From Nitratireductor sp. XY-223 (GTDB taxonomy: Bacteria > Pseudomonadota > Alphaproteobacteria > Rhizobiales > Rhizobiaceae), in contig NZ_SPNT01000002.1 of NCBI RefSeq assembly GCF_004959855.1, positions 248,001 through 312,000 of the forward strand: a stretch of DNA of 64,000 nt, written 5' to 3'. The notes beneath the pieces are model-generated. The model made no database searches and was not told the DNA's origin. It was given only the letters and a program-made list of their open reading frames with translations. Of the stretch, positions 46,513-64,000 are shown piece by piece. The number at the start of each line of letters is the position of its first letter. Positions within the stretch are counted from its first letter, which is position 1. The position numbers were made by a program, and so were the translations under genes.

Positions 46513-48044
46513 TGGGCCGCCTCCTGCTCTTCTTCGACACCGGCCATCAGCAGTCCCAATTCCCCTTCCGTTGCTTCCGGCGTCCGCTCGCCGACGACGC
46601 GGCCCGCAAACATGACCAGGATCCGGTCGGACAACGAACGGATCTCGTCGAGTTCGACCGAGACGAGGAGCACGGCCTTGCCGGCGTCGCGCATCTCGAT
46701 GATGCGCTTGTGGATGAATTCAATGGCGCCGACATCGACGCCGCGTGTGGGCTGGCCGATGACCAGCACCGCCGGATCGCGCTCCATTTCACGCGCCAGG
46801 ACAATCTTCTGCTGGTTGCCGCCGGAAAAGTTCGACGTTTTCAGGCGCACATCGGGCGGCCTGATATCGTATTTCTCGGCGCTGGAGGCGGCGTGGCTGC
46901 GGATCGCATCGAGTTTGAGCATCGGGCCGTTCAGATATTCGTCATCGTAATGGTAGCCCAGAATTGCGTTCTCGTTTTCCTCGAAGGTGAGGACGAGGCC
47001 CATATGGTGCCGGTCCTCCGGCACATGGGCGAGCCCGCGCTTGCGCAAGTCCTGCGGATCGGCGTCGCCGGTGACATCTATCGGCTTGTCACTGAGCAGC
47101 ACGGTCCCGCTCTCGGCGCGGCGTATGCCGGTGATCGCCTGCAGCAGTTCCGACTGGCCGTTGCCGGCGACGCCGGCAATGCCCACGATTTCGCCGGCCC
47201 GTACCTCGAAGGAGACATTGTCGACCATGACAACACCGCGATTGTCGCGCACCGTCAGCCCGTCAACCGAAAGCTTGACGTCCTTGACATCCGCGGGCCC
47301 CTTCTCGACGCGCAGGAGCACGCGGCGGCCGACCATCAGTTCGGCCAGCTCCTCGACATTGGTTTCCGACGTCTTGCGGGTGGCCACCATCTCGCCGCGG
47401 CGCATCACCGAGACCTCGTCGGTGATGGCCATGATCTCGCGCAGCTTGTGGGTGATGAGGATGATGGTCTTACCCTGGTCGCGCAGCTGTTCCAGAATGC
47501 GGAAAAGGTGATCGGCCTCGGCCGGCGTCAGCACGCCGGTGGGCTCGTCCAGGATCAGGATATCCGCGCCGCGATAGAGCGCCTTGAGAATCTCGACCCG
47601 CTGCTGCAGTCCGACCGGAAGTTCCTCGATGACCGCATCGGGATCGACTTCCAGCGCGTATTCGTCCTCCAGGTGCTTCAGCTCTGCCCGCGCATTGACA
47701 ATGCCGCGGTTGAGGATGGCGTTTTCCTCGGCGCCGAGCATGACATTCTCCAGGACTGTGAAATTGTCGACCAGCATGAAATGCTGGTGAACCATGCCGA
47801 TGCCGGCGGCGATGGCGACATTCGGGTCACGGATGGTGATCTCGTCGCCATTGACGAAGATCTTGCCCGCATCGGCCTGGTAGAAGCCGTAGAGGATCGA
47901 CATCAGTGTGGATTTGCCGGCGCCGTTTTCGCCGATGATCCCGTGTATCGTTCCCTTGTGGACGCTCAGATTGATGTTCTTGTTGGCATGAACCGGACCG
48001 AAACTCTTGTCGATGCCCCTCAATTCGATAGCAAGATCGCTCAT
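46509..48044 (-). CDS. nucleoside-type ABC transporter ATP-binding protein (two ATPase domains)
   Basis: 511 residues with two ABC domains, as in NupO/sugar-type importers. First: GENGAGKSTLMSILYG, LPVGLQQRVEILKALYRG, ILILDEPTGVLTP. Second: GVAGNGQSELLQAITG (degenerate Walker A, lacking the usual Lys-Ser/Thr), FSGGNQQKIVLAREM, VLVIGQPTRGVD (degenerate Walker B), a normal feature of this class. First gene of the leftward operon ATPase-permease-permease-cdd-punA-deoA. No substrate-binding (BMP) gene lies upstream. Confidence 0.92.
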   Translation of the reverse strand: MSDLAIELRGIDKSFGPVHANKNINLSVHKGTIHGIIGENGAGKSTLMSILYGFYQADAGKIFVNGDEITIRDPNVAIAAGIGMVHQHFMLVDNFTVLENVMLGAEENAILNRGIVNARAELKHLEDEYALEVDPDAVIEELPVGLQQRVEILKALYRGADILILDEPTGVLTPAEADHLFRILEQLRDQGKTIILITHKLREIMAITDEVSVMRRGEMVATRKTSETNVEELAELMVGRRVLLRVEKGPADVKDVKLSVDGLTVRDNRGVVMVDNVSFEVRAGEIVGIAGVAGNGQSELLQAITGIRRAESGTVLLSDKPIDVTGDADPQDLRKRGLAHVPEDRHHMGLVLTFEENENAILGYHYDDEYLNGPMLKLDAIRSHAASSAEKYDIRPPDVRLKTSNFSGGNQQKIVLAREMERDPAVLVIGQPTRGVDVGAIEFIHKRIIEMRDAGKAVLLVSVELDEIRSLSDRILVMFAGRVVGERTPEATEGELGLLMAGVEEEQEAAQ

Positions 48045-48062
48045 GCGCCTTCCGTTTTTTTA

Positions 48063-48082
48063 TCAATTGGTATAATTGACCA
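48063..48082. promoter_or_regulatory. candidate operator in the divergent region before the nucleoside operon
   Basis: TCAATT (48063-48068) and AATTGA (48074-48079) form a 6-bp inverted repeat with spacer GGTAT, and overlapping it TGGT-N7-ACCA (48068-48071 with 48079-48082) resembles a GntR-family half-site pair. It lies about 20 bp upstream of the ATPase start, between that gene and the divergent alcohol dehydrogenase gene. The regulator is not in the window. Confidence 0.35.
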
Positions 48083-48218
48083 CCATATTCACCTGCCCTA
48101 GGCGATGCCAGCCCGAAACCCGGCTTTTTTTCCCAGTTCCGACCTAAACAGTTGCACGATTTCCTTTAAAGCGGAAGCGGCCTAATGTGTGAACTGGATT
48201 TGATTGAGTGGAGGAACC

Positions 48219-49391
48219 ATGTCGGCATTCGCGTTTCATACGACCGCGCAGATCATCGTGCGCCCGGGCGCGTCCGGCGGCATTGCCGAGATCGCCGGCA
48301 AAAAGCTCGGGCGATCGGTCCTGTTCGTGACCGACAGTGGCATCCGCAATGTCGGCCTCGACCAATCCGCCATTCGCTCACTGGAAGATGCCGGGCATTC
48401 GGTGACCGTCTTCGACGCCGTCGAGGCCGATCCGAGCCTCGATACGCTGATGAATTCCGTGGAGGCGGCGCGGGGTTGCGGTGCCACCGGGGTGGTGGCG
48501 CTGGGTGGCGGTTCGTCGCTCGACGTGGCGAAGCTGACGGCCCTGCTGGCCGGCTCGGGAGAGGACATCGACGCGGCCTGGGGCGTCGGCAACGCGAAAG
48601 GCCCGCGCCTGCCGCTGGTGCTGATCCCGACCACCGCGGGCACCGGCTCGGAGGTCACGCCCGTTTCGATCATCACCGTCGGCGGCGAGGAAAAGCGCGG
48701 CGTATCCTCGCCGGTCATCCTGCCGGACACTGCGATTCTCGACGCCGAACTCACCGTCAGCCTGCCGGCGCCGGCGACGGCTGCAACGGGCATCGACGCC
48801 ATGGTGCACGCGATCGAGGCCTACGCATCGAAGAACGCCAACAACAACCCGGTTTCGCGTATGCTTGCCACCGAGGCGCTGAAACTTCTCGGCACCCATA
48901 TCGAGGCGGCGGTTTTCACGCCGGACAACCTGGAGGCGCGCGGCGCCATGCTGCTCGGCTCGACGCTCGCCGGCATGGCCTTCGCCAACTCGCCGGTCGC
49001 GGCCGTGCATGCGCTGGCCTACCCGATCGGCGGCACGTTCCATATCCCGCACGGGCTCTCCAACGCACTGGTGCTGCCGCAGGTGCTGCGCTTCAACGCG
49101 GCCGAGGCCGAGAACGGCTCGTACCGGCTCTACGCGGAACTCGGCCCCCATGCCTTCGCCGATTTCGAAGCCGGCGGCGGGGCGCAGGAGGACTGCGCGG
49201 CCTTCATCGAACGGCTCGCGGCGCTTTCGGCCAATATCGGCCTGCCGCAGCGGCTGCGCGATGTCGGCATCGGCGAGGAGGCGCTGCCGAAAATGGCCAG
49301 CGACGCCATGAAGCAGACCCGGCTGCTCGTCAACAATCCGCGCCACGTCGATGAGGCCGACGCGCTCGCCATCTACCGCGCCGCGTGGTGA
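48219..49391 (+). CDS. iron-containing (group III) alcohol dehydrogenase
   Basis: 390 residues. NAD-binding GATGVVALGGGSSLDVAKLTALL and PTTAGTGSEVTPVSIIT, then metal-binding GIDAMVHAIEAY and AVHALAYPIGGTFHIPHGLSNALVLP with the His ligands of the Fe-ADH family. Probably oxidises a hydroxy-acid or polyol or reduces an aldehyde; substrate not evident. ATG at 48219 is preceded by GGAGG; an in-frame TTG 15 bp earlier is less likely. A thioesterase gene starts 4 bp after its stop. Confidence 0.9.
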   Translation: MSAFAFHTTAQIIVRPGASGGIAEIAGKKLGRSVLFVTDSGIRNVGLDQSAIRSLEDAGHSVTVFDAVEADPSLDTLMNSVEAARGCGATGVVALGGGSSLDVAKLTALLAGSGEDIDAAWGVGNAKGPRLPLVLIPTTAGTGSEVTPVSIITVGGEEKRGVSSPVILPDTAILDAELTVSLPAPATAATGIDAMVHAIEAYASKNANNNPVSRMLATEALKLLGTHIEAAVFTPDNLEARGAMLLGSTLAGMAFANSPVAAVHALAYPIGGTFHIPHGLSNALVLPQVLRFNAAEAENGSYRLYAELGPHAFADFEAGGGAQEDCAAFIERLAALSANIGLPQRLRDVGIGEEALPKMASDAMKQTRLLVNNPRHVDEADALAIYRAAW

Positions 49392-49395
49392 CGCC

Positions 49396-49830
49396 ATGAA
49401 CCGCCCTGCCCCGCTCGGGCGCGAGAGTTTCCGCGTCTTCCGCCAGTTGCAGTCCCGCTGGGCCGACAACGACATCTACGGCCACATGAACAATGTCGTG
49501 CACTACGCGCTGTTCGACACGGCGATCAACGGATGGCTGGTCGAGAAGGAATTGCTCGACCTCAAGAGAGGCGAAACCATCGGCCTCGTCGTCGAGACCG
49601 GGTGCCATTACTTCGCCGAGCTCGCCTTTCCGGACCGCATCGACGCCGGCATCGGCGTCGAGCGCATCGGCTCGTCCTCGGTGATCTACCGGATCGCGCT
49701 GTTCCGCGACGAGGACGCGACGGCGGCCGCCCAGGGCCGCTTCGTCCATGTCTATGTCGACCGCGGGACGCGCCGGCCGAAGCCGCTCGACGCGCACTGG
49801 CGCGAAACGCTGGAGGGCGCGCTTCTATGA
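49396..49830 (+). CDS. acyl-CoA thioesterase, 4HBT/YbgC-like hot-dog fold
   Basis: 144 residues. SRWADNDIYGHMNNVVHYALFDTAINGWLVEK contains the 4HBT active-site Asp region (D-N-D-x-x-G-H-M-N-N), followed by ETGCHYFAELAFPDRIDAGIGVERIGSSSV. Hydrolyses an acyl-CoA thioester; the chain is not predictable. It overlaps the slyX start (ATGA) and follows the alcohol dehydrogenase closely, so one transcript is likely. Confidence 0.88.
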   Translation: MNRPAPLGRESFRVFRQLQSRWADNDIYGHMNNVVHYALFDTAINGWLVEKELLDLKRGETIGLVVETGCHYFAELAFPDRIDAGIGVERIGSSSVIYRIALFRDEDATAAAQGRFVHVYVDRGTRRPKPLDAHWRETLEGALL

Positions 49831-50042
49831 CCGGGGAAACGCAGGCCCGGCAGATCGCCAGGCTCGAGGAACATATCGCCCATCAGGCCCATACGATCGA
49901 CGAGCTTTCGGAGCAGGTCGAGAAGCAATGGAAGCTGATCGACCTCCTCAAGGCGCAACAGCAAAAGCTGGTCGACCGGCTGCTGGCCCTCGAGGAGACG
50001 TCCGGAGAGGCGCCGCCGGACACCAAGCCACCGCATTATTGA
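49827..50042 (+). CDS. slyX: SlyX family protein
   Basis: 71-residue predicted coiled coil: RQIARLEEHIAHQAHTIDELSEQVEKQWKLIDLLKAQQQKLVDRLLALEE, ending in the family's hallmark PPDTKPPHY. Function of SlyX is unknown. The ATG at 49827 overlaps the thioesterase stop. Followed 26 bp later by the aminotransferase gene. Confidence 0.92.
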   Translation: MTGETQARQIARLEEHIAHQAHTIDELSEQVEKQWKLIDLLKAQQQKLVDRLLALEETSGEAPPDTKPPHY

Positions 50043-50068
50043 AGCGAACAACCGGATAACCGCCACCG

Positions 50069-51181
50069 ATGACCGAATTCTCCCGTTTCACCCCGCTCGT
50101 CCAGTCGCTGCCGGCCACGGTTCCGTTTGTCGGACCGGAAACCCAGGAACGCGCCGCCGGAAAGCCGTTCCGCGCCCGCATCGGCGCCAATGAGAGCGGC
50201 TTCGGCCCGGCGCCGTCGGTCAGGGAAGCCATGCGCGCCGGCGCAGATGAGGTCTGGAAATACGGCGATCCGGAAAACCACGACCTGCGCACTGCGCTGG
50301 CGGCGCATCTCGGCATCGCGGCGGACCGGATTGTCATCGGCGAGGGCATTGACGGGCTGCTCGGGCTCGTGGTGCGCCAGATCGTCGGCCATGATACGCC
50401 GGTCGTCACCTCGCTCGGCGCCTATCCGACCTTCAACTACCATGTCGCCGGGTTCGGCGGGCGGCTTGTCACCGTCCCCTACCGCGACGACCATGAGGAT
50501 TTGGACGGCCTGCTTGACGCGGTGAGGCGCGAGGGCGCGCCGCTCGTCTTTCTCGCCAATCCGGACAATCCGATGGGCACCTGGCATGCCGGCGATGCCG
50601 TCGCGGCCTTTGCCGAGGCGCTGCCCGAACAGACGATGCTCATCCTCGACGAGGCCTACGGGGAAATGGCGCCGCCAGACGCCCTGCCGCCGGTCGCGGC
50701 GCTCATCGACCGGCCGAACGTCATACGCATGCGGACCTTTTCCAAGGGCTACGGGCTCGCGGGCCTGCGCTGCGGCTACGCCTTCGGCACGGCCGGAACC
50801 ATCGCCTCCTTCAACAAGGTGCGCAACCATTTCGGGGTCAACAAGATGGCGCAGATCGCGGCGCTCGCCGCTCTGAAGGACCAGAATTATCTTGAAAGCG
50901 CCTGCGGGCGGATCGATGCGGCGCGGCAGCGGATCGATGAGATTGCCCGTGCCAACGGGCTGGAGACGCTTCAATCGGCAACGAATTTCGTTGCCATCGA
51001 CTGCGGCCGGGATGCCGAATTCGCGACGGCGCTGCTCAACGCCCTGGTCGCGCGCGGCGTCTTCGTGCGCATGCCGGGCGTCGCCCCTCTCAACCGCTGC
51101 ATCAGGATCAGTGTCGGGCCCGACGAGGCACTTGACATATTCGAAGCGGAACTGCCGCCCGCACTGGCGGCAGTGTCCTGA
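50069..51181 (+). CDS. PLP-dependent aminotransferase, HisC-like
   Basis: 370 residues, fold-type I class I/II aminotransferase resembling histidinol-phosphate aminotransferase. ANESGFGPAPSVREAM, VWKYGDPENHDLRTALAAHLG, FLANPDNPMGTW (Asn of the cofactor site), ILDEAYGEM, and the Schiff-base Lys in RTFSKGYGLAGLRCGY. It might be a true HisC or one of the paralogues acting on other amino donors; no his genes are adjacent, so I leave the symbol blank. It lies at the end of a rightward ADH-thioesterase-slyX-aminotransferase run. Confidence 0.87.
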   Translation: MTEFSRFTPLVQSLPATVPFVGPETQERAAGKPFRARIGANESGFGPAPSVREAMRAGADEVWKYGDPENHDLRTALAAHLGIAADRIVIGEGIDGLLGLVVRQIVGHDTPVVTSLGAYPTFNYHVAGFGGRLVTVPYRDDHEDLDGLLDAVRREGAPLVFLANPDNPMGTWHAGDAVAAFAEALPEQTMLILDEAYGEMAPPDALPPVAALIDRPNVIRMRTFSKGYGLAGLRCGYAFGTAGTIASFNKVRNHFGVNKMAQIAALAALKDQNYLESACGRIDAARQRIDEIARANGLETLQSATNFVAIDCGRDAEFATALLNALVARGVFVRMPGVAPLNRCIRISVGPDEALDIFEAELPPALAAVS

Positions 51182-51190
51182 TCGCGGGCC

Positions 51191-51517
51191 TTAGGCCTGC
51201 GGACCTTCCGCCATTTCGACGGCCTCTTCCCAGGAATGGCCGGCGGCCATGATGCAGGTCATGCCCGTCGTCGTCGTCATGAGGATCGTCCAAGTGCCGG
51301 TTTTCGACGTGTAGACCTCGAATACGGCCTTGCCGGACGAGGCAAGCCCGAGCGCGCGCGGCGCTTCCTTGTACTTGTCAGCAAGGGCTTTCAACAGAGA
51401 AGTCCGGTCGCCACAAGCCAATCCGGCGGCCGGCGCCTGTGTCGACAAGCATACAACCGCCGATGCCAATGTAATACCCAGTAACTTTCCTGGATTCTTA
51501 AGTCTTAATTTCCGCAT
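51191..51517 (-). CDS. small exported protein of unknown function, two conserved-looking Cys
   Basis: About 108 residues. Basic start MRKLRLKNPGKLLG, hydrophobic segment ITLASAVVCLSTQAPAAG as a signal peptide, then a compact domain: ACGDRTSLLKALADKYKEAPRALGLASSGKAVFEVYTSKTGTWTILMTTTTGMTCIMAAGHSWEE, with Cys in ACGDR and TCIM that could form a disulphide. I do not recognise a named family, but the pattern is familiar from conserved hypotheticals of Rhizobiales. Start at 51517 (AAAGG 7 nt upstream) or the ATG at 51523. Convergent with the aminotransferase gene. Confidence 0.75.
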   Translation of the reverse strand: MRKLRLKNPGKLLGITLASAVVCLSTQAPAAGLACGDRTSLLKALADKYKEAPRALGLASSGKAVFEVYTSKTGTWTILMTTTTGMTCIMAAGHSWEEAVEMAEGPQA

Positions 51518-51546
51518 CTTCATACCTTTCGCAGCCAATAAAGCTT

Positions 51547-51583
51547 GTCTGACGAGAGGTATATTCATTTACATGCGTCAGAC
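51547..51583. repeat. 8-bp inverted repeat in the promoter region of the small exported protein
   Basis: GTCTGACG (51547-51554) and CGTCAGAC (51576-51583) are exact complements 21 bp apart, 30-66 bp upstream of the start at 51517. It could be a paired regulator site; no further support. Confidence 0.3.
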
Positions 51584-51665
51584 GCACTTGGTAGCTGAAC
51601 CAGTACATTCATGGTTCATGCAGTAACTCCGGAACAACTTAATCTGTCCAGTTTGCGCCCCAATG

Positions 51666-51682
51666 GTTAACAAGGTGTTAAC
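51666..51682. promoter_or_regulatory. perfect-consensus candidate CtrA site upstream of the RidA gene
   Basis: GTTAAC (51666-51671) is repeated at 51677-51682, giving TTAA-N7-TTAAC exactly. It lies 81 bp before the ridA-like start and about 150 bp upstream of the divergent small exported protein, so it could serve either. Match to the CtrA consensus is complete; binding is inferred. Confidence 0.6.
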
Positions 51683-51762
51683 GATTTCGGCCGCCGACGA
51701 CATTGTGAAGTCGTGCCGGCTTGACTAGGAATGCGCCATCAAATCCAGGGCGAGGAACTCCC

Positions 51763-52161
51763 ATGACCAAAAGGGCCATCGTGCCGCCGGCGCTCCGGGA
51801 GGCGGCGGAGCAATTGAAAATGTCGCCGGCGGTGCTTTCCGGCAATCATCTCTTCCTGACCGGCTCGACCGGCGGCGATGCGGACGGGGTCATGCCGGAT
51901 GACCCGGAGGCGCAGATGCGCAACGCCTTCGACAAGATCGGGTTCATCCTGCGGGAGGCCGGGCTCGGTTTCGAGGCGATCGTCGAGATGACGACCTACC
52001 ATGTGGGCCTGCGCGAGCATTTCGACCTGTTCGATTCCGTGCGCCTCGATTATGTGGATGCGCCCTATCCCGCCTGGACCGCGGTCGAGGTGGCGGGCCT
52101 GCGCCGGGAGGGCGCGGTGGTCGAGATCCGGGTGATCGCCAGCACCGAACCGTCCGATTGA
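51763..52161 (+). CDS. RidA/YjgF/YER057c family protein
   Basis: 132 residues. RidA-type enamine/imine deaminase fold: SGNHLFLTGSTGGD, DPEAQMRNAFDKIGFILREAGLGFEAIVEMTTYHVG, and the terminal VVEIRVIAS with the catalytic Arg position. Members remove reactive enamine intermediates made by PLP enzymes or act on other imines. The ATG at 51763 has GAGGAACTCCC upstream. Convergent with katG across a terminator. Confidence 0.88.
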   Translation: MTKRAIVPPALREAAEQLKMSPAVLSGNHLFLTGSTGGDADGVMPDDPEAQMRNAFDKIGFILREAGLGFEAIVEMTTYHVGLREHFDLFDSVRLDYVDAPYPAWTAVEVAGLRREGAVVEIRVIASTEPSD

Positions 52162-52177
52162 TAAAGCACAAAAAGAA

Positions 52178-52206
52178 AGGGCGCGGCCGGGTTGCGGCCG
52201 CGCCCT
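52178..52206 (-). terminator. Rho-independent terminator after katG
   Basis: A 12-bp perfect stem (AGGGCGCGGCCG at 52178-52189 with its complement at 52195-52206) and a 5-base loop. Read leftwards it is followed by a T-rich run (complement of 52168-52177). It begins 20 bp after the katG stop. Confidence 0.85.
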
Positions 52207-52226
52207 GATCGTTCAGCGGGACGGGA

Positions 52227-54765
<2,539 letters not shown>

Positions 54766-55686
54766 ATGAATAATCTGACCTTCAAACAGCTCCGCTATTT
54801 CGACGCGCTGGCCCGGCATGGTCATTTCGGGCGGGCCGCGGATTCATGCGCGATTTCCCAGCCGGCCCTTTCCATGCAGATCAAGGAACTGGAGGAAACG
54901 CTGGGCACCGAGCTCTTCGAGCGGGGCGCGCGCCAGGTGCGCCTCACCCATTTCGGCGAGGAGTTCGCGGCCCGCGCCCGCGACATCCTGCGCTCGGTCA
55001 ACGAGCTGACGGACCTTGCGCGCGCCGCGCGCGACCGGCTGGTCGGCCGGCTGCGGATCGGGGTGATCCCGACAATCGCGCCCTACCTTCTGCCGACGAT
55101 CATCGGCGATCTTTCGGACCTGCACGACGGGCTGGACATTCATGTGCGCGAAACCGTGACCCCGAAGCTTATCCAGGAACTGGCCGAAGGCCGGCTGGAC
55201 ACCGCCATCCTGGCCCTGCCGGTCTCCGAACCGTCGCTGACGGAGGTCGCGCTCTTTAGCGAGAATTTCGTCCTGGTGCGTCCGGGCGAGGATGCCGGCA
55301 AGCCGGTGCCGAGCCGCGAAATGCTGCGCGAGATGCGGCTGCTTTTATTGGAGGAGGGACACTGTTTCCGCGACCAGGCGCTGTCCTTCTGCGACATGCA
55401 TGCGACGCGGCCGCGGGAACTCCTCGACGGAAGCTCCCTGTCGACGCTGGTGCAGATGGTCAGCGCCGGGATCGGCGTCACCCTCATTCCCGAGATGGCG
55501 GTGGCGGTGGAAACGCGCTCGGCATCGGTTTCCGTCGCCGCGTTCCGGAACCCGCAGCCGTCGCGGACCATCGGCATGGTGTGGCGCAAGACCAGCCCGC
55601 TGGCCGGCCAGTTGCGGCAGATCGCCGAGGTTGTCCGCCGATCGGCCGAGACAATGCGGGCGCGGCGGGATACGGTGCCGGTTTGA
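54766..55686 (+). CDS. oxyR: hydrogen-peroxide-sensing LysR-type regulator OxyR
   Basis: 306 residues. LysR winged helix at residues 1-60 (TFKQLRYFDALARHGHFGRAADSCAISQPALSMQIKELEETLG), then an effector domain with the redox pair C200 (EEGHCFRDQALSF) and C209, spaced nine residues as in E. coli C199/C208. It activates katG on oxidation. Followed by a 137-bp region carrying the SDR remnant and then the convergent LysR gene. Confidence 0.93.
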   Translation: MNNLTFKQLRYFDALARHGHFGRAADSCAISQPALSMQIKELEETLGTELFERGARQVRLTHFGEEFAARARDILRSVNELTDLARAARDRLVGRLRIGVIPTIAPYLLPTIIGDLSDLHDGLDIHVRETVTPKLIQELAEGRLDTAILALPVSEPSLTEVALFSENFVLVRPGEDAGKPVPSREMLREMRLLLLEEGHCFRDQALSFCDMHATRPRELLDGSSLSTLVQMVSAGIGVTLIPEMAVAVETRSASVSVAAFRNPQPSRTIGMVWRKTSPLAGQLRQIAEVVRRSAETMRARRDTVPV

Positions 55687-55699
55687 TAGCGGGACGGAG

Positions 55700-55772
55700 T
55701 GTCACCCGTCCTTGATGACGCGCCCTATCATTGCCGCGACGCCGCCCTTCGAGGCGGCATAGGCCGTGCGGC
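55700..55772 (-). pseudogene. mosaic remnant of the SDR gene at 60869-61636
   Basis: 55700-55721 is identical over 22 bp to 60867-60888 (the last codons and stop of the SDR gene), then a 6-base join, then 55728-55772 matches 61141-61185 at 43 of 45 positions (the SDR active-site YAASK region). The intervening 252 bp of the SDR gene are missing; the join keeps frame and reads RTAYAASKGGVAAM-IG-RVIKDG-stop. Too short to function. It marks the left edge of a probable inserted block. Confidence 0.8.
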
Positions 55773-55823
55773 GATGATCCTGACCGGGAAGGTTATTCTT
55801 CCTTTTCCCGCATACCGCTTCTT

Positions 55824-56702
55824 TCAGATCCCAGCGCTGCTCAGGACATCTTTGACCAACAGTTCAACTGCACGACGTTGCGCCTGCGATTGGCGCACTG
55901 CGAGATGGAATTCCGATTTCCACGAAAGTTCCGGATGGTCGAGCGTTCTGAGATCTCCGGAGGCCACCCATCCTTGCGCATAGTGATCGGGCAACGCGCC
56001 GAGGTAGCGTCCGCTGAGGATCAACATGGCCATCGCCTCCATATTGGCGACGACGGCCTTCGGAAAGGCCGAACCGAAAGCCGGCCCCGCCGCCGTGTCG
56101 TAGGAGCGTTGGCAGACTGGAAACCGGTTCAGGATTTCCGGGGTGATCGCGTCTGCCGAGGCGTCGAACAACGGATGCTGGCGGCCGCAATAAAGGCTGT
56201 GTCCCTCGGTACAGACTTCGGTGTAGCTGAGCTCGGCCACCTTGTTTTTGAACGGCGCAATGGCAACATGCACGCTCCCGGTGATTAGACCCTGGGTAAG
56301 ATCGGTTGGCGAAGCCACGACGATCTCGAGCCGAACGTCGTTTTTGCGACCGAGAAAACGCTGAAGCGCAGCGACCAGCGGAAACCCCGGAAGGCTAGTC
56401 ACCGCGTCGACGACGCCAATGCGCAATTCACCGGTGATCGTGTCCCGCAACTCTGTCAACTCGGCATCGAAATCACGCACGCGGCGAAGCATGGCGCATG
56501 CCTTTTCATAGGCGATCTGGCCGCGCTCCGTGAGGCAGAAGCCGCTCCGCCCGCGTTGACAGACCCGGTAGCCAAGCGCCAGCTCAAGGTCGCGTATCCT
56601 GCAGCTTATCGCCGATTGCGTGATGCCCAGTGCGTATTGTGCGTCCGAAAATCCGCCGCATTCGACCACGGTGACGAATGTTTCCAGCAGGTTGTTTTGC
56701 AT
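55824..56702 (-). CDS. LysR-family regulator of the TRAP/ureohydrolase unit
   Basis: 292 residues. N-terminal winged helix (NNLLETFVTVVECGGFSDAQYALGITQSAISCRIRDLELALGYRVCQRG) and a LysR substrate domain (GELRIGVVDAVTSLPGFPLVAALQRFL). ATG at 56702 is reported; an in-frame TTG at 56711 has closer GAAGG and is an alternative. Divergent from dctP across 157 bp containing an array of TTACAT half-sites, so it probably controls itself and the transporter in response to the imported substrate. Confidence 0.88.
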   Translation of the reverse strand: MQNNLLETFVTVVECGGFSDAQYALGITQSAISCRIRDLELALGYRVCQRGRSGFCLTERGQIAYEKACAMLRRVRDFDAELTELRDTITGELRIGVVDAVTSLPGFPLVAALQRFLGRKNDVRLEIVVASPTDLTQGLITGSVHVAIAPFKNKVAELSYTEVCTEGHSLYCGRQHPLFDASADAITPEILNRFPVCQRSYDTAAGPAFGSAFPKAVVANMEAMAMLILSGRYLGALPDHYAQGWVASGDLRTLDHPELSWKSEFHLAVRQSQAQRRAVELLVKDVLSSAGI

Positions 56703-56743
56703 CAGTTTCAATCGCCTTCTCCCGAACCGGTGCCGCTACGCGA

Positions 56744-56800
56744 TATTACATGAATTCTGAGAATGTAAGTATATAATATTCGATATTGTTTCATGTAATA
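56744..56800. promoter_or_regulatory. LysR-type operator array between the regulator and dctP
   Basis: TTACAT (56746-56751) and ATGTAA (56763-56768) are separated by 11 bp, the T-N11-A design. A 10-bp exact inverted repeat also pairs TATTACATGA (56744-56753) with TCATGTAATA (56791-56800), giving a third half-site near dctP. A TATAAT at 56772-56777 lies between the sites. Confidence 0.65.
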
Positions 56801-56859
56801 GGATATGGTCTTTCTTCCCGGATCAGCGACGGACTGAAACCTCTGGGAGGACAGACAAG

Positions 56860-57879
56860 ATGAGCTTTTCATTCGCGAAACTGAAAACAATCGCCATCGC
56901 GATTGTGCTCGCCGCGACACCGGTCGGTGCCATGGCGGAGGACTGGAAATTCGCCATTGAGGAGATCCCCGGATCCATCATGGATGCCTATGCGCAGGAA
57001 TTCAAATCCCGCATAGAGGCCGCGACCAATGGCGACGTGACGGTGACCGTCTATCCGATGGGCACGCTTGGCACCCCGACCGAAACTGTTGAACAGGCTT
57101 CCGACGGAATCATCCAGTTCACCAATGTTTCCATCGGCAATCTCGGTACGATCGTACCGGAAAGCCAGGTTTTTCTGTTGCCCTATCTCCTGCCCTCCGA
57201 TCCGACCGAAATCTCCGGCATCCTGAGCGGTTCGAAAACAATTTACAGCGACCTGAATGAGGATTTCCGGAAGCGCGGCCTCGAAGTTCTGACCATGTAC
57301 TCGGAAGGCCCTCAGGTCTGGACCACAAACCGGGAAATCCGCACGCCGGAAGATTTTTCGAATTTCAAGATGCGGGTGATGGTGTCGCCGATCCTGCTGG
57401 AAACATATAAAAATATTGGCGCAAGTCCGACACCGCTGCCTTTCGGCGAAGTGTTCGGAGCGCTGCAACTCGGGGCCGTCGACGGACAGGTGAACCCTAT
57501 CCCGACCATTGAGGAAATGAAATTCTATGAAGTGACCAGTCACCTCATATGGGCCGGTGAGCAGGAGCTTGTCACCACGGTTGTCGCCGGTTCCGACTGG
57601 TTCGAAACCCTGTCGCCCGAGCGGCAACAGCTGGTGCGCGAAACCATGGCAGGCATGACCGGTTTCATTGACGGTGTCGTAACCGACTTCAACAAGAAAC
57701 GCCTGGATATCATCACCGCAGCCAAGCCCGAGATCAAACTCGTCGTGCTGAATGAGGAAGAGCGCGACGTATTCCGCGCGCGCAGCGGTGACACCGCCAG
57801 GGCCTATGTTGACGCTGCGGGCGATCGCGGCCAAGCGCTGCTCGATGCCCTACAGGCGGAAATCGCCGCCTCCAACTAA
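56860..57879 (+). CDS. dctP: TRAP transporter substrate-binding protein (DctP family)
   Basis: 339 residues with a Sec signal (LKTIAIAIVLAATPVGAMAED). DctP fold segments: LGTPTETVEQASDGIIQFTNVSIG, the carboxylate-binding Arg R172 in FKMRVM, and PFGEVFGALQLGAVDGQVNPIPTIEEMKFYEV. It captures an organic acid in the periplasm; R172 implies a carboxylate on the substrate. GGGAGG precedes the ATG. First gene of dctP-Q-M-ureohydrolase. Confidence 0.93.
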   Translation: MSFSFAKLKTIAIAIVLAATPVGAMAEDWKFAIEEIPGSIMDAYAQEFKSRIEAATNGDVTVTVYPMGTLGTPTETVEQASDGIIQFTNVSIGNLGTIVPESQVFLLPYLLPSDPTEISGILSGSKTIYSDLNEDFRKRGLEVLTMYSEGPQVWTTNREIRTPEDFSNFKMRVMVSPILLETYKNIGASPTPLPFGEVFGALQLGAVDGQVNPIPTIEEMKFYEVTSHLIWAGEQELVTTVVAGSDWFETLSPERQQLVRETMAGMTGFIDGVVTDFNKKRLDIITAAKPEIKLVVLNEEERDVFRARSGDTARAYVDAAGDRGQALLDALQAEIAASN

Positions 57880-57937
57880 CAGCACCGGCCTGGCCCCCGC
57901 GCCGGATCGCGCAGGGGCCATCGCCCGGGAGGAGAAA

Positions 57938-58546
57938 ATGCAGGACGGCAAGCCGGCTCCCCTCAGGTTCCTCGGCAATTTGGATGCGGCGGTCTGCAGG
58001 GTCGAGATGCTCATCCTGAGCTGGGGTATTATCCTGATGGCGACGAACACCATCGCCAACGTTCTGGGTCGCTACGTATTCCTTCAGTCAATTTACTTCT
58101 CCGAGGAACTGAACGAGTTCCTGATGGTCATGATTACGTTCATGGGACTTGGATACGCCACGCGAAAGGGAATCCATATCCGCATGTCGGCGGTCTACGA
58201 CGCCTTGCCACAACGGCTGCGCAAGGCGCTGATGATCGTGATCGCGCTCACCACGGCGGTCATGATGGCGGTTCTGACCTGGTATGCGATCGAATATGTG
58301 CAGAAGGTCGCGAACCGCGGGCGCATAACGCCCGCACTGCAGGTTCCACTCTATCTCACATATATCTGGGTGGTCGCCGGGCTGGCCCTGACCGCCGTGC
58401 AATATCTGCTGACCGCGATCCGCAATCTCAACTTTTCAGAAAACGAGATCTACGTGTCCTACGTCGAGGTCGACAGTTACGAAGACCCCGAAACCGTCGC
58501 CGCGCTCAGCCGCCACGATGCAGACGAGCAGGAGGTCTCCAAATGA
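57938..58546 (+). CDS. dctQ: TRAP transporter small permease (DctQ family)
   Basis: 202 residues with four membrane helices typical of DctQ: MLILSWGIILMATNTIANVLGRYVF, EELNEFLMVMITFMGLGYATRKGIHIRM, ALMIVIALTTAVMMAVLTWYAIEYV and YIWVVAGLALTAVQYLLTAI. The acidic cytoplasmic tail (VEVDSYEDPETVAALSRHDADEQE) is longer than usual. ATG at 57938 with GGGAGGAG upstream. Overlaps dctM (ATGA). Confidence 0.92.
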   Translation: MQDGKPAPLRFLGNLDAAVCRVEMLILSWGIILMATNTIANVLGRYVFLQSIYFSEELNEFLMVMITFMGLGYATRKGIHIRMSAVYDALPQRLRKALMIVIALTTAVMMAVLTWYAIEYVQKVANRGRITPALQVPLYLTYIWVVAGLALTAVQYLLTAIRNLNFSENEIYVSYVEVDSYEDPETVAALSRHDADEQEVSK

Positions 58547-59823
58547 CCGAATTGATGCTGGCGGTGATGATCGTCCTCCTGCTTGCCGGGTTCCCGATGA
58601 AAATGCCGCTGATTTCTGCGGCGGTCCTCGGTTTTCTTGTCTACTTCCCGAATATGAGCCTGCAAATCCTGATTCAGCAGATGATCGGAGGCGTGAAACC
58701 GGCGGCGCTGGTGGCGGTACCGATGTTCATTCTCGCCGCAGACATCATCACGCGCGGTCATTCAGCCAATCGCCTGATCGACGTTGTGATGAGCTTCATG
58801 GGTCACATAAAGGGCGGACTGGCGATTTCTGTGACCAGTGCCTGCGCTCTGTTCGGCGCCGTATGCGGGTCGACCCAGGCGACCGTTGTCGCGGTCGGCG
58901 GCGCAATGCGTCCCAGAATGCTGAAATCAGGATACAATGACAGTTTCGCCATCGGACTGATCGTCAACGCTGCCGATCTTGCCTATCTGATCCCGCCGTC
59001 GATCGGCATGATCATCTATGGCGTTGTTTCGGGAACCTCGATTTCCAAGCTCTTCATTGCTGGAATCCTGCCCGGTCTGCTGATTGTCGCTCTCTTTTCT
59101 GCCTACTGCATGTGGTACGCCTATCGACACGACATTCCCGTACTGCCGCGGGCCAACTGGAAGTCACGGCTGCTGGCGACGCGACGCGCCGTCTGGCCGA
59201 TGGGTTTCCCGCTCATCATCGTTGGCGGCATCTATGGGGGTGTCTTCTCGCCAACCGAAGCAGCAGCGATCTGCGTGCTCTACGCGGTCATTCTCGAAGC
59301 GCTGGTTTTCCGTTCGATCCGGATGCGCGACCTTCCGGGCATAGCCCTGTCAACCGGGGCCATTACTTCCGTCGTGTTCATCCTGATTGCGGCGGGCGCG
59401 GCCTTTTCGTGGACGCTATCGTTCGCACAGGTACCGCAGACGATTATTCAGGCGCTGGGACTGAACGATGCCGGGCCGCTGATGGTCCTTCTGGCCATCA
59501 ACCTGGCCTTTTTTATCGGCTGCATGTTTGTCGATTCGATTGTCGTAATCCTGATCCTCGTTCCGATCTTCGCACCGATGATCAAGACAACGGGGCTCGA
59601 TCCCGTTCTGGTCGGCGTCTTGATCACCCTGCAGGTAGCAATCGGCGCGGCAACACCGCCTTTCGGCTGCAACCTGTTTACGGCGATAGCCGTTTTCCGG
59701 CGGCCCTTTGTTGACGTGGTGCGCGGCGTGCCACCTTTCCTGGTGATTCTGCTCTTGGTCACCGGGTTGTTGATTGCCTTCCCTCCGATCGCCCTGTTCC
59801 TGCCGGAACTGGCCTATCGTTAA
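58543..59823 (+). CDS. dctM: TRAP transporter large permease (DctM family)
   Basis: 426 residues, about twelve membrane helices, sodium-driven transport subunit. VPMFILAADIITRGHSANRLIDVVMSFMGHIKGGLAISVTSACALFGAVCGSTQAT and IPPSIGMIIYGVVSGTSISKLFIAGILPGLL are DctM signatures. Starts inside the dctQ stop. The ureohydrolase gene begins 15 bp after its stop, so substrate uptake and hydrolysis are probably co-expressed. Confidence 0.94.
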   Translation: MTELMLAVMIVLLLAGFPMKMPLISAAVLGFLVYFPNMSLQILIQQMIGGVKPAALVAVPMFILAADIITRGHSANRLIDVVMSFMGHIKGGLAISVTSACALFGAVCGSTQATVVAVGGAMRPRMLKSGYNDSFAIGLIVNAADLAYLIPPSIGMIIYGVVSGTSISKLFIAGILPGLLIVALFSAYCMWYAYRHDIPVLPRANWKSRLLATRRAVWPMGFPLIIVGGIYGGVFSPTEAAAICVLYAVILEALVFRSIRMRDLPGIALSTGAITSVVFILIAAGAAFSWTLSFAQVPQTIIQALGLNDAGPLMVLLAINLAFFIGCMFVDSIVVILILVPIFAPMIKTTGLDPVLVGVLITLQVAIGAATPPFGCNLFTAIAVFRRPFVDVVRGVPPFLVILLLVTGLLIAFPPIALFLPELAYR

Positions 59824-59838
59824 CCCGGAGATATGATT

Positions 59839-60804
59839 ATGCCAGGCCATGGATACGAAGCCGGTCGTTTGAACCTGCCCTTTGTCGGCATCTCGACCTT
59901 CGGAAAATCTGAATATGTCCGGGATTGGGACCGGATCGATGCCGATGTCGCCATCCTCGGCGCGCCGTTCGATTTCGGGACCCAGTGGCGTTCCGGAGCC
60001 CGGTTTGGGCCGCGAGCAGTACGCGATGCTTCCACCTTATTCAGCTTTGGGCACGCGGGCGCCTATGATCACGAAGACGATGTTACCTACCTTGGCGGCA
60101 ATGTGCGCATGGTCGATATCGGCGACGCTGATATCATCCACACCAGGACCCGGGAAAGTCACGCCAATATCGAATATGGCGTGCGGAAAATTCTCCAGGC
60201 CGGCGCGCTGCCAGTTGTGATCGGTGGGGATCATTCCGTGAATATCCCCTGCGTTGATGCCTTTTCCGACAGCTGCGCCCAGCACGGGCCGATCCACATT
60301 GTGCAGATCGACGCCCATCTGGATTTCGTCGACGAGCGCCACGGCGTTACCTTCGGTCACGGAAACCCGATGCGCCGCGCTATCGAAAAAGACTACGTCT
60401 GCGGCATGACACAACTGGGCATCCGCAACGTGTCGTCAACCGCCAGGGAGGGCTATGACGAGGCCCGCGCGCGCGGCTCCGACATATTGTCGGTCCGTCA
60501 GGTCCGCGCTTTGGGGGCCGAAGGGATCCTGGCCCGCATTCCAAGCGGTGCGCGTTACTACGTGACTATCGACATCGACGCGTTCTGCCCTTCGATCGCA
60601 CCGGGGACAGGCACGCCCAGCCATGGCGGCTTCAACTATTATGACGTACTGGAAATCGTGCAGGGGCTGAGCAGACGCGGCAATGTGGTCGGCTTGGACC
60701 TTGTGGAAGTCGCACCCGCCTATGACCCGACGGAAAGCACACAGATCCTTGCGGCGCAACTTCTGCTCAACTTCATCGGTTTCATCTTCCACAACAGGAA
60801 ATAG
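59839..60804 (+). CDS. ureohydrolase (agmatinase/guanidino-acid amidinohydrolase family)
   Basis: 321 residues. Mn-cluster ligands are present: H132 (GGDHS), D158, H160 and D162 (IDAHLDF), D245 and D247 (TIDIDAF). The last Asp of the D-x-D-x-x-D-P signature is C250 (DIDAFCPSIAPGTGTP), which is unusual. The family cleaves urea from guanidino compounds such as agmatine, guanidinobutyrate or guanidinopropionate. Coupling to a carboxylate-type TRAP importer favours a guanidino-acid over agmatine; that is inference. ATG at 59839 has CGGAG 8 nt upstream; an ATG at 59833 is too close to it. Confidence 0.85.
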   Translation: MPGHGYEAGRLNLPFVGISTFGKSEYVRDWDRIDADVAILGAPFDFGTQWRSGARFGPRAVRDASTLFSFGHAGAYDHEDDVTYLGGNVRMVDIGDADIIHTRTRESHANIEYGVRKILQAGALPVVIGGDHSVNIPCVDAFSDSCAQHGPIHIVQIDAHLDFVDERHGVTFGHGNPMRRAIEKDYVCGMTQLGIRNVSSTAREGYDEARARGSDILSVRQVRALGAEGILARIPSGARYYVTIDIDAFCPSIAPGTGTPSHGGFNYYDVLEIVQGLSRRGNVVGLDLVEVAPAYDPTESTQILAAQLLLNFIGFIFHNRK

Positions 60805-60866
60805 GCTGCCACGCGGCAGGCGACCAGGCAGCGGCCATCCGAATTGCAAAGCTGGTTGGCGATGAA

Positions 60867-60888
60867 TGTCACCCGTCCTTGATGACGC
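60867..60888. repeat. right copy of the 22-bp direct repeat bounding the inserted block
   Basis: Identical to 55700-55721 in the same orientation; begins TGTCACCCGTCC. It includes the stop codon and last codons of the SDR gene, so the intact SDR sets the right boundary of the LysR-TRAP-ureohydrolase block. Confidence 0.85.
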
Positions 60889-61636
60889 CGCTGGCGTCGA
60901 AGCCGCCGTCGACCGGCAATGTGACGCCGGTGATATAGCCCGATTGCGGCAGGGCGAGATAGACGGCGGCGGCGGCGACCTCCTCAGGCGTGCCGTAGCG
61001 GTCCATCGGGATGCCGGCGAGATAGGCGCGGCGGGTTTCCGCGTCGTGCATCTTCTTGACCAGCGCGGTTTCGATGGCGCCCGGCGCCAGGGCATTGACG
61101 GTCACGCCGCTTTTCGCCCATTCCACCGACATCACCCGCATCATCGCCGCGACGCCGCCCTTCGAGGCGGCATAGGCGGTGCGGCCCGTGCCGCCGCGGA
61201 TGCCGGCCATGGATGACATGGCGACAATGCGGCCGTAACCATTTTCGACCATCACGCGGCCCGCCGCCTGCATCATCAGGAAGCTGCCGGTGAGATTGAC
61301 GCCGGTGATCCGGTCCCAGTTCTCGCGCGTCGTGTCCAGCGCGCCTTGCTCCATGCCGATCCCGGCGAAATGCATAAGGATCTCGAGCGATCCGAATTTC
61401 TCCAGCGTGGCGGCGACCAGCGCGTTCACGTCGTCGGCATCGGCCACATCCGCGCGCACAAAGATTGCTTTGCGCCCATCGGCCGTCAGTTCGGCAACGG
61501 CGCCGTGCCCGGCCTCTTCGTTCAGATCGGCAATAACGACGCTGGCATCCAGAGCCGCCAGCATCCGGGCTGTCGCGAGACCGATGCCGCTGGCGCCGCC
61601 CGTGACGATTGCCGTATGGCCCTTGAGCGCGAACAT
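60869..61636 (-). CDS. SDR family oxidoreductase
   Basis: 255 residues, classical SDR: TGGASGIGLATARML (cofactor loop), ADLNEE after the second strand (acidic, favouring NAD(H)), HFAGIG in place of NNAG, SSMAG (Ser), Y-A-A-S-K catalytic pair, and the C-terminal ITGVTLPVDGGFDASGVIKDG. FabG-like; substrate unknown. GGAGGT lies just upstream of the ATG at 61634-61636. It starts 11 bp after the flavoprotein stop, so the two probably act in one pathway. Its 3' end is duplicated at 55700. Confidence 0.9.
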   Translation of the reverse strand: MFALKGHTAIVTGGASGIGLATARMLAALDASVVIADLNEEAGHGAVAELTADGRKAIFVRADVADADDVNALVAATLEKFGSLEILMHFAGIGMEQGALDTTRENWDRITGVNLTGSFLMMQAAGRVMVENGYGRIVAMSSMAGIRGGTGRTAYAASKGGVAAMMRVMSVEWAKSGVTVNALAPGAIETALVKKMHDAETRRAYLAGIPMDRYGTPEEVAAAAVYLALPQSGYITGVTLPVDGGFDASGVIKDG

Positions 61637-61647
61637 CCGACCTCCAA

Positions 61648-64000
61648 TCACCCCCGCATCCTAGTCCCTTCGGGATCGTAGAGCGGTTTCGCCGTAACCC
61701 TTGCCGGGTAACGGTTTCCGAGAATTTCCACTTCCAACGCGGTTCCGTCCGCCGCGAGTTCCGGCGGCACGTAGCCGAAGGCCATGGATTTGCCGACATG
61801 GTGGGCATAGCCGCCGGAGCTGACATAGCCGACGCAGGCGCCGTCCTTCATGATCGCCTCGTCATTGCTGACGTCGATATCGCCGGTCTCGACGGTCATG
61901 ACGACAAGCCTGCGGTCGGGGCCGGTCTTGCGTTCGGCGAGCGCTGCCTCCTTGCCGATGAAATCCTTGTCCCAGTCGATGAAGGCGTCAAGGCCGGACT
62001 GGGCGGGGGTGAAATCGGGCCGGAAATCGAGCGTCCAGGCGCCCCAGTTCTTTTCCAGCCGCAGCGACATGAGCGCCCGGTTTCCATAGGGTTTCAAACC
62101 GAGATCGGCGCCCTCCTCTTCCAGGCGCTCATGAAGCTTGATGAGATATTGCGGCGCGCAATAGATCTCGTAGCCGAGCTCGCCGGAGAAGGAGACCCGC
62201 GCCAGCAGCACCGGGACCCCCGCCACGTAGGTGCGGCGGATATCGCGGAATTTCAGGCTTTCGCCCGACACGTCGTCGCGGCACAGGCGCTGCAGCAACT
62301 CGCGCGAATTCGGACCGGAAATGGCGATGCCGTGCCAGTCATCCGAGGCGTTGCGGTAGGAAACGCCCTCATCGGGCAGGTATTTCTCGAACCAGCGGCG
62401 GTGCATCTCCTGCGCCGGGCCGGAACCGAACAGGATGAAGCGCTCCTCGTCGAGACAGGCGACCGTGAGATCGCCGTAGAGCCGGCCGGCCTCGGTAAGA
62501 AGCGGCGTCAGCGACAGGCGACCCGGCTTCGGCACCCGCCCGGCGCAGAGCCGGCCGAGGAAGGCCCGCGCGCCCGGACCGGACACCGCGTGCTTGGCGA
62601 AATTGGCGATCTCGATCATGCCGACGGTCTCGCGCACTGCCTTGACCTCGTCGGCCACGTAGTCGTGGGCGCGCGAGCGCTTGAAGGTCGGCTCCTCGTG
62701 GGCGTCGTCGGCACCGTTCGCGAACCACAGCACGTGTTCGAGGCCGAAGCTCGCATCCATCACCGCGCCCCTGGCGATCAGCCGGTCGTAGAGTGCCGTC
62801 GTCTTCTGGCGGCGGCCCTTCGGCAGCGTCTCGTTCGGGAAGGTCATGACGAAACGGCGCTCGTAATTCTCCGACGACTTGATGGTGCCGTATTCGGGCG
62901 TCGCGAACTCGCCGAAGCGGGCGACGTCCATCGCCCACACGTCGATGGACGGCTCGCCGTCGATCATCCATTCGGCCATGCACAGGCCGACCCCGCCGCC
63001 CTGGCAGAAACCCGCCATGACGCCGACGGCGACCCAGTAGTTCCGCATGCCGGGCACCGGCCCGATCATCGGATTGCCGTCGGGACCGAAGGTGAAGGGG
63101 CCGTTGATCATGTCCTTGATGCCGGCGCGGCCAAGCGCCGGAATGCGCTCGAAGCCGAGTTCCAGCCGGTCGGCGATGCGGTCGAGATCCGGCGCCAGCA
63201 ATTCGTGGCCGAAATCCTGCGGCGTGCCCCCGACCTTCCAGGGTGTCGAGCGCGGCTCGTAGGTGCCCAGCAGCATACCCTGGCGCTCCTGGCGGAAATA
63301 GATGTTGCCCTCGTAGTCGATGCCGGCGGGCAGCCGGTCCTCCGGATCGCGCTCGACGATCTCTGGGATCGCCTCGGTGATGAGATAGTGGTGCTCCATC
63401 GGCTGTACGGGCAGATCGACGCCCGACAGATGACCGACCTCGCGCGCCCACAGGCCGCCGGCATTGACGATGTATTCGGCATTGATCGTTCCGTTCGGGG
63501 TCACCACGTCCCAGGAGCCGTCCGGCTTCTGGCTGGTTTCGATCACCGGCGTGTGGGTGTGGTAGGTGCCGCCATAATGGCGCGCCGCCTTGGCGTAGGC
63601 GTAGGTAACGCCGGACGGGTCGATATCGCCGTCGAGCGGATCCCAGAGCGCGGCGACATAGCGGCTCGGATCGATGAGCGGGTGGCGGCGCGCCGCCTCC
63701 TCGACGGAGATGAATTCCTGGTCGAGGCCCATGTAGCGCGCCTTGGAGCGCTCGCGCTTGAGATAGTCGTACCAGTCCTGGTTGGAGGCAAGATAGAATC
63801 CGCCGGTCGAATGCATGCCGCAGGACTGGCCGGAGAGCTCCTCGATCTCACGATAGAGGTTGATCGTGTAGCCCTGCAGGCGCGAGATGTTCGGATCGGA
63901 ACTGATGGTGTGGATCTGGCCGGCGGCGTGCCAGCTTGAGCCGGACGTCAGTTCGTTGCGCTCCAGGAGCACGACGTCGCGCCAGCCGAACTTGGCAAGG
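61648..64000 (-). CDS. GcvT-type FAD-dependent dehydrogenase (dimethylglycine/sarcosine dehydrogenase family), partial
   Basis: 784 residues visible; the frame continues to the right edge (LAKFGWRDVVLLERNELTSGSSWHAAGQIHTIS), so about 30 N-terminal residues with the dinucleotide-binding GxGxxG are missing. FAD-dependent DAO domain to about residue 380 of the visible part, an FAO_M-type middle, then GcvT folate-binding domains (FGSGPAQEMHRRW; GYEIYCAPQYLIKLHERLEEEGADLGLKPYGNRALMSLRLEKNWGAWTLDF). SSWHAAGQ has the His where FAD is covalently attached in this family. It oxidatively demethylates an N-methyl amino acid and passes the methyl group to tetrahydrofolate. Confidence 0.92.
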   Translation of the reverse strand, partial: LAKFGWRDVVLLERNELTSGSSWHAAGQIHTISSDPNISRLQGYTINLYREIEELSGQSCGMHSTGGFYLASNQDWYDYLKRERSKARYMGLDQEFISVEEAARRHPLIDPSRYVAALWDPLDGDIDPSGVTYAYAKAARHYGGTYHTHTPVIETSQKPDGSWDVVTPNGTINAEYIVNAGGLWAREVGHLSGVDLPVQPMEHHYLITEAIPEIVERDPEDRLPAGIDYEGNIYFRQERQGMLLGTYEPRSTPWKVGGTPQDFGHELLAPDLDRIADRLELGFERIPALGRAGIKDMINGPFTFGPDGNPMIGPVPGMRNYWVAVGVMAGFCQGGGVGLCMAEWMIDGEPSIDVWAMDVARFGEFATPEYGTIKSSENYERRFVMTFPNETLPKGRRQKTTALYDRLIARGAVMDASFGLEHVLWFANGADDAHEEPTFKRSRAHDYVADEVKAVRETVGMIEIANFAKHAVSGPGARAFLGRLCAGRVPKPGRLSLTPLLTEAGRLYGDLTVACLDEERFILFGSGPAQEMHRRWFEKYLPDEGVSYRNASDDWHGIAISGPNSRELLQRLCRDDVSGESLKFRDIRRTYVAGVPVLLARVSFSGELGYEIYCAPQYLIKLHERLEEEGADLGLKPYGNRALMSLRLEKNWGAWTLDFRPDFTPAQSGLDAFIDWDKDFIGKEAALAERKTGPDRRLVVMTVETGDIDVSNDEAIMKDGACVGYVSSGGYAHHVGKSMAFGYVPPELAADGTALEVEILGNRYPARVTAKPLYDPEGTRMRG

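Follow-up and report, generated by a model that had tools for sequence, protein, structure and literature searches.

In this work we analyse a five-gene cassette encoding a LysR-family regulator, a tripartite ATP-independent periplasmic (TRAP) transporter and an agmatinase-family ureohydrolase, which lies in a stretch of 64,000 nucleotides from Nitratireductor sp. XY-223 (contig NZ_SPNT01000002.1, positions 248,001 to 312,000; hereafter the window, in whose numbering positions are given unless another locus is named). The genome assembly, 6.19 Mb in 59 contigs, is denoted G000. The cassette occupies the gap between an oxyR-like gene and a convergent gene for a short-chain dehydrogenase/reductase (SDR). 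Our best explanation, to which we assign a probability of about 0.75, is that it is a horizontally acquired unit of a kind known here from some Roseobacteraceae of marine type, inserted into the oxyR/SDR gap and bounded by a duplicated stretch of the host SDR gene. Horizontal acquisition is argued because the cassette is missing from the same locus of a sister species, has a lower GC content than its surroundings and occurs as the same unit elsewhere; absence from a sister species, atypical composition and close homologues in another lineage are the features by which horizontally acquired regions are recognised. An initial annotation, made from the sequence alone, had proposed an inserted unit at this place, and both the sister locus and the composition bear this out.

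Duplicated SDR sequence at the ends of the cassette

The 22-bp direct repeat reported in the initial annotation (55700-55721 and 60867-60888) is exact and belongs to a slightly longer match, in which 55697-55721, the SDR 3' end with its stop codon, agrees with 60864-60888 at 24 of 25 positions. A further left-hand piece, 55727-55772, matches 61140-61185 at 44 of 46 positions; the annotation's values for this piece (43 of 45, with 252 bp replaced by 6) describe it one base shorter. The two left pieces stand in SDR order and are separated by 5 bp (GCCCT), versus 251 bp in the intact gene. Their right-hand counterparts belong to a complete SDR gene of 260 amino acids (60869-61651, minus strand; PF13561 and PF00106), of which they form the 3' end and the YAASK region, taken to be the active-site region, in agreement with the proposed picture of a shrunken SDR remnant on the oxyR side and an intact gene on the other. 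The stop codon of the left copy stands 15 bp from that of oxyR, a spacing that fits an old convergent junction; on the right the gene is complete and retains its 5' side and a flavoprotein neighbour. The copied pieces span 322 bp end to end in the gene (60864-61185), of which 71 matched bp remain, and we infer that the middle of the left copy was once copied and then lost.

A chance repeat is ruled out by shuffling and by a search of the whole genome. The 137-bp spacer between oxyR and the cassette LysR gene shares an exact match of up to 32 bp with other parts of the window, versus at most 18 bp in 200 dinucleotide shuffles; a 401-bp query over the spacer (E<=1e-3) identified just the two SDR places in the genome apart from itself, with 40 of 74 first-look candidates scored, such that weaker places may be missing. 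Nor was the left piece found within another gene, as it would be if it were a fragment of something other than an SDR. The sequences next to the repeats, 55773-55823 and 60805-60863, gave no convincing match to the SDR regions of G000, of the sister genome G007, of the relatives G003 and G213 or of the Leisingera locus described below. For 60805-60863 the score against G007, a weak hint, was equalled by 2 of 200 shuffles, and the score of 118 against its own SDR region is a self-match, the query being contained in the target.

The 46-bp left piece is nearest to the adjacent SDR gene (44/46, versus 39/44 in G003 and 37/44 in G213). As the remnant is nearest to the window's own SDR and no close SDR was found in the fetched stretches of genomes that carry the cassette, the host itself is the most likely source of the duplicated stretch. 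Recombination between SDR paralogues, which had been suggested as a source, is not preferred, since the remnant fits the adjacent gene best and no other place was found in the genome search among the candidates scored. Of the 71 sites matched between the two copies, three differ; a number of differences this small or smaller has a probability of 0.0006 at an assumed 0.18 per site and of 0.07 at 0.10. Fourfold-site identity between G000 and G007 is lower (0.59 for oxyR, 0.74 for the flavoprotein and 0.76 for katG), from which it follows that the duplication, like the cassette, is probably younger than the split of the two lineages.

The sister locus and other relatives

Sixty relatives were searched with the SDR and with OxyR. 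The nearest by OxyR is G007, of the same genus (93%), whose locus (L039) reads katG-oxyR-fic-SDR relic-flavoprotein-mttB-like gene, the last being labelled mttB from its 36% identity to an annotated trimethylamine methyltransferase gene. The LysR-TRAP-ureohydrolase block is absent from this locus, and the ureohydrolase has no match anywhere in G007 at E<=1e-60. The order in G007 indicates that oxyR and the SDR-flavoprotein pair were once neighbours, so that the former adjacency of katG/oxyR to this pair, postulated from the window alone, is upheld. The SDR relic of G007 (L039 7190-7440) is frame-shifted and has lost two internal stretches, with deletion ends at short direct repeats. Between oxyR and the relic stands a fic gene (L039 6322-6912; PF02661) with no relative in G000 at E<=1e-5, which implies either a separate insertion into the same gap or the loss of an old gene from G000. 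As an observation in its own right, the oxyR/SDR gap may have taken up foreign genes twice, the cassette in G000 and fic in G007.

The neighbourhood itself appears to be uncommon. The SDR was found in 3 of 394 genomes of the family at E<=1e-85, our own included; in G003 it adjoins apparent ABC-transporter and aldolase genes, as judged by eye from translated open reading frames (ORFs). OxyR and the flavoprotein stand at separate loci in G001, G003 and G004, and this SDR was seen in the fetched stretch of none of five flavoprotein loci from other genomes (L155-L159). The oxyR-SDR-flavoprotein neighbourhood therefore looks like a derived state common to G000 and G007, with the block newer still.

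Had the order oxyR-LysR-TRAP-ureohydrolase-SDR been ancestral synteny, other relatives would be expected to carry it. It is absent from the seven relatives' oxyR loci that were read widely (of 42 other genomes with an OxyR match) and from the best 80 of at least 585 named oxyR loci, some of which end at contig ends and for which matches of at least 45% identity were recorded. Matches of that grade to the block, the SDR or the flavoprotein occur in one of these 80, in Hoeflea halophila (L110), with DctM at 65%, DctQ at 49% and DctP at 36%, about 8 kb away beyond katG.

The cassette in other genomes and plasmids

The same five genes, in identical order and orientation, are present on the 355-kb plasmid pBMJM1_1 of Leisingera thetidis (NZ_CP109788.1, 104206-109198; GC 64%), between a TonB receptor gene and TetR-mttB-FAD genes, with amino acid identities of 90% for DctM, 83% for the ureohydrolase, 82% for DctP, 78% for DctQ and 66% for LysR. 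They also recur, again in identical order and orientation and at 61-91% amino acid identity, in 5 of 325 genomes of one Roseobacteraceae-type family, namely that of a locus (L135) titled Primorskyibacter flagellatus, which is placed in Roseobacteraceae in the NCBI taxonomy. These five genomes and the L. thetidis plasmid are the six carriers referred to below, and statements on their surroundings concern the fetched stretches. Among 72,556 plasmid records, 71 match DctM at E<=1e-60; the identity exceeds 80% in one (90%, L. thetidis) and is 60-80% in 18, the latter being scored on DctM alone. At the DNA level NZ_CP109788.1 is again the single record in which 80% or more of the block is covered (92%, at 76% identity). 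Nearer to the host, DctP was found in 2 of 297 genomes of the order at E<=1e-100 and DctM in 2 of 385 genomes of the class at E<=1e-180, our own included in both counts. The other genome in each case (53% for DctP, 67% for DctM) has DctPQM, with no LysR or ureohydrolase match in the fetched stretch.

In a joined DctPQM tree, one outgroup row of which (L110) is incomplete and long-branched, the window groups with the six carriers in a single clade with full support; identity is 83-86% between carriers and window and 85-94% among carriers. On the right, DNA similarity to the carriers ceases 8 bp or less from the ureohydrolase stop, and on the left it ends within the LysR gene, so that the flanks are not common to window and carriers. 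No close SDR lies beside the cassette in any of the six; one (L187) has an SDR of 34% identity about 2 kb off, and a 31-kb stretch of the L. thetidis plasmid contains no match to the window SDR.

Three further observations concern these surroundings. On other Leisingera plasmids LysR and speB occur together without TRAP genes (L167 11811-13817, with eight more records that show both names), by which the transporter seems to be a separable part. The L. thetidis cassette is followed by TetR, mttB and FAD/GcvT-type genes (L166 18115-22087), and a functional link of the cassette with a flavoprotein-mttB pair was considered and rejected, since the likeness to the mttB and flavoprotein of the window's neighbourhood is only 36% and 47% and none of the five other carriers has such a pair (E<=1e-15). 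A phage origin was likewise set aside: the cassette LysR, the one cassette gene searched against phage records, gave two matches at 28%.

Base composition and codon usage

GC content is 58.1% in 55773-60863, versus 64.1% in the left flank (50000-55696), 65.7% in the right flank (60864-64000) and 62.7% in the whole window. Third-position GC (GC3) is 0.70-0.78 in the five block genes, versus 0.83-0.87 in katG, oxyR and the SDR gene; the flavoprotein has 0.859. Four block genes are less typical in codon usage than most window ORFs, in a table that omits dctQ, displaced by a longer overlapping ORF, and whose reference ORFs were chosen by length alone, some possibly in wrong frames. The comparison with the flanks that the initial annotation proposed thus shows a difference in GC and GC3, one that is less distinctive in codon usage.

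Weighing the evidence

Several points weigh against the preferred reading of an acquired cassette bounded by a host SDR duplication. The clean empty site that had been predicted, with oxyR followed directly by an intact SDR gene and a single copy of the repeat, was not found: G007 lacks the block and keeps the former neighbours, yet it is the only relative found with these neighbours, its gap holds fic and its SDR gene is decayed. Codon usage as atypical as that of the block genes is found in several further ORFs of the window, and the GC content of the block lies nearer to the window mean (62.7%) than to the values of its flanks. The left copy has no homology past 61185, so that a short target duplication and a duplicated whole gene cannot be told apart. 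The age estimate is drawn from 71 surviving bp with three differences, and gene conversion could have kept the repeat young. The DctPQM clade lacks resolution at its base, and the window is one of its seven members rather than nested among the carriers. Finally, with this SDR missing beside the cassette in the fetched stretches of all six carriers, the homology for a crossover is unseen in any donor.

We suggest that a foreign cassette entered the short gap between the convergent oxyR and SDR genes, most likely after the split from G007, that the end of the host SDR gene was duplicated with the insertion or shortly before it, and that the left copy then decayed, losing its middle. Entry may have been through one crossover in the SDR gene, by a circle or a joined fragment with part of the SDR on it, or by insertion into a fresh tandem duplication. 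These two routes are sub-cases of the preferred explanation and we regard them as about as likely as each other, either being a tentative choice on its own, while a single event of insertion with duplication is the simplest reading. If a circularised foreign molecule with a piece of this SDR was integrated by a single crossover of the Campbell type, direct repeats would arise at both ends, in keeping with the native 3' side that survives in the left copy, the native 5' side that survives in the right copy and the truncation of each at the end facing the cassette; passages of PMC3240628 describe ligation of linear DNA and its integration by single crossing-over in Escherichia coli. The rest of such a circle is not seen, and no SDR stands beside the cassette in the fetched stretches of the six carriers. 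If instead the SDR gene was first duplicated in tandem, the cassette was later placed, by whatever means, between the two copies and the one beside oxyR decayed, the same anatomy would result once the left copy had lost its 5' part, and the left remnant does end inside the gene with no homology beyond. This route needs two events within the short time suggested by 68/71 identity, and no relative with two SDR copies here was seen, G007 alone sharing the neighbourhood.

The left junction raises a further, unlikely route, in which the cassette became joined to the host by a template switch in the course of replication or repair. The left SDR piece runs on into GATGAT; this and the preceding GCGGC are together exactly complementary to ATCATCGCCGC, which stands at 61140 in the gene, and a nested hairpin results at 55727-55778 (plus strand; outer arms ATCATTGCCGC and GCGGCGATGAT), of which the last six bases lie outside the SDR homology. 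A templated scar at this junction is possible: the GATGAT arm beyond the homology is the exact complement of the gene's ATCATC, and the T in the ATCATT of the left copy is probably derived, given that the own SDR gene, G007 and G213 have ATCATC and G003 has ATCATG. Any one place tried nevertheless has a 1 in 4096 probability of a six-base match by chance, position 24436 of the window holds a second instance of the 11-mer GCGGCGATGAT, and a comparison of 55773-55823 with SDR regions yielded no further piece derived from them. The hairpin may also be merely a decayed coding palindrome or a transcript end. Folding of the spacer gave z = -2.67 on the plus strand (1 of 200 shuffles as stable) and z = -2.09 on the minus strand (6 of 200), and a terminator scan listed no site in the spacer. 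More doubtful still is a fuller version, in which an integrase-free, replication-based entry copied at least 322 bp of the host SDR and left a fold-back scar whose GATGAT arm was templated by the ATCATC of the gene; if it were true, the oxyR/SDR gap might be a recurrent entry point for foreign genes, fic standing in the same gap of the sister species. Apart from the question of mechanism, the nested hairpin of the remnant is strong and, lying between two convergent genes, could act as a transcript end.

That the block was present in the common ancestor and was lost from G007, the gap being filled by fic, we consider highly improbable. The G007 site is itself disturbed, by the fic gene and the SDR deletions, as such a history would allow. 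Against it stand the lower GC of the block, the separate loci of oxyR and the flavoprotein in G001, G003 and G004, and the scarcity of relatives: besides our own genome, the 297 of the order yielded one DctP (53%) and the 385 of the class one DctM (67%).

Gene content and predicted function

Between the repeats are a minus-strand LysR-family regulator gene (55824-56711; PF00126 and PF03466; 61-72% amino acid identity across the six carriers) and, on the plus strand, dctP for the TRAP solute-binding protein (56860-57879; PF03480, NF037995), dctQ for the small permease (57935-58546; PF04290), dctM for the large permease (58543-59823; TIGR00786, PF06808; 88-91% across the carriers) and the ureohydrolase gene (59833-60804; PF00491). 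The initial gene calls agree with the family searches, save that the OxyR label falls below the PRK11151 cut-off. The largest intergenic gap among the five genes is 148 bp (56712-56859); as they fill the insert, there is no room beside them for an integrase or transposase gene, in line with the earlier remark that none was visible. Family searches of the annotated genes between the repeats found neither kind of gene, ORFs in other overlapping frames not having been searched against families. No tRNA or tmRNA occurs within 48000-64000, the repeats being SDR coding sequence and not a tRNA-end att site, and none of 12 listed inverted pairs (minimum 18 nt, shorter pairs lying outside the test) connects the two ends of the insert.

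The adjacent P, Q and M subunit genes make up a complete DctPQM transporter. The ureohydrolase passes the agmatinase model TIGR01230 (183.2 bits, cut-off 174.3) and falls below PRK02190 (198.7 versus 302); its best sequence matches in the PDB are agmatinase 1wog and guanidinobutyrase 3nio, with which its GGDHS, DAHLD and DID align. GGDHS, DAHxD and DxD are presumably the metal-binding motifs of agmatinase. Judged by these family assignments, the cassette probably takes up a guanidino compound through its TRAP transporter and splits it by hydrolysis, with urea and an amine as products, under the LysR regulator. Relatives of the ureohydrolase (75-78%) in other genomes (L048, L053 and L054) have one or two distantly related SDR genes within about 1 kb, which hints at a shared pathway.

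On the left, katG (52227-54431, minus strand; TIGR00198, above cut-off) encodes a catalase/peroxidase and is divergent from the oxyR-like LysR regulator gene (54766-55686, plus strand), whose label is based on a PRK11151 score of 248 bits (cut-off 329) and on the divergent katG; a katG match lies inside the fetched stretch of 79 of the 80 related oxyR loci. On the right, the intact SDR gene is followed by an FAD/GcvT-type flavoprotein gene that extends beyond the window end (61648-63999, minus strand; PF01266, PF01571, PF08669). The flavoprotein has 23 matching stretches in G000, itself included and some of them single-domain, a large expansion of FAD/GcvT-type proteins in this genome.

Comparison with known systems

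The L. thetidis plasmid agrees in all five genes and in their order and orientation, and differs in being plasmid-borne, in its GC of 64%, in its flanks and in having no SDR match. Integration of a molecule by a single crossover is termed Campbell-type, and the arrangement in the window resembles its product in that direct repeats of a host gene piece stand at both ends of the insert, each cut toward the insert, with one copy whole; it is unlike such a product in that no donor homology was seen (0 of 6 carriers, in the fetched stretches), no remainder of a circle was seen and the left copy is largely decayed. A transposon insertion would leave a short target duplication of fixed length, unlike the 322-bp span with 71 matched bp seen here, whose copied middle is itself deduced, and an integrase-borne genomic island would bring an integrase and a tRNA/tmRNA att repeat, neither of which occurs among the annotated genes. 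Homology-facilitated illegitimate recombination, as treated in passages of PMC3240628, is likewise an integrase-free capture of foreign DNA; there it is generally accompanied by a host deletion of similar size, whereas here host sequence is duplicated.

The kind of event is already known, and the locus is a clear and fairly ordinary case of horizontal gene transfer. Its value is that of a fairly well resolved case: an accessory metabolic cassette moves between alphaproteobacterial lineages and has become chromosomal without visible mobile-element genes, a scar of host sequence supplies a relative date for the insertion, and the cassette is itself a testable candidate for guanidino compound use.

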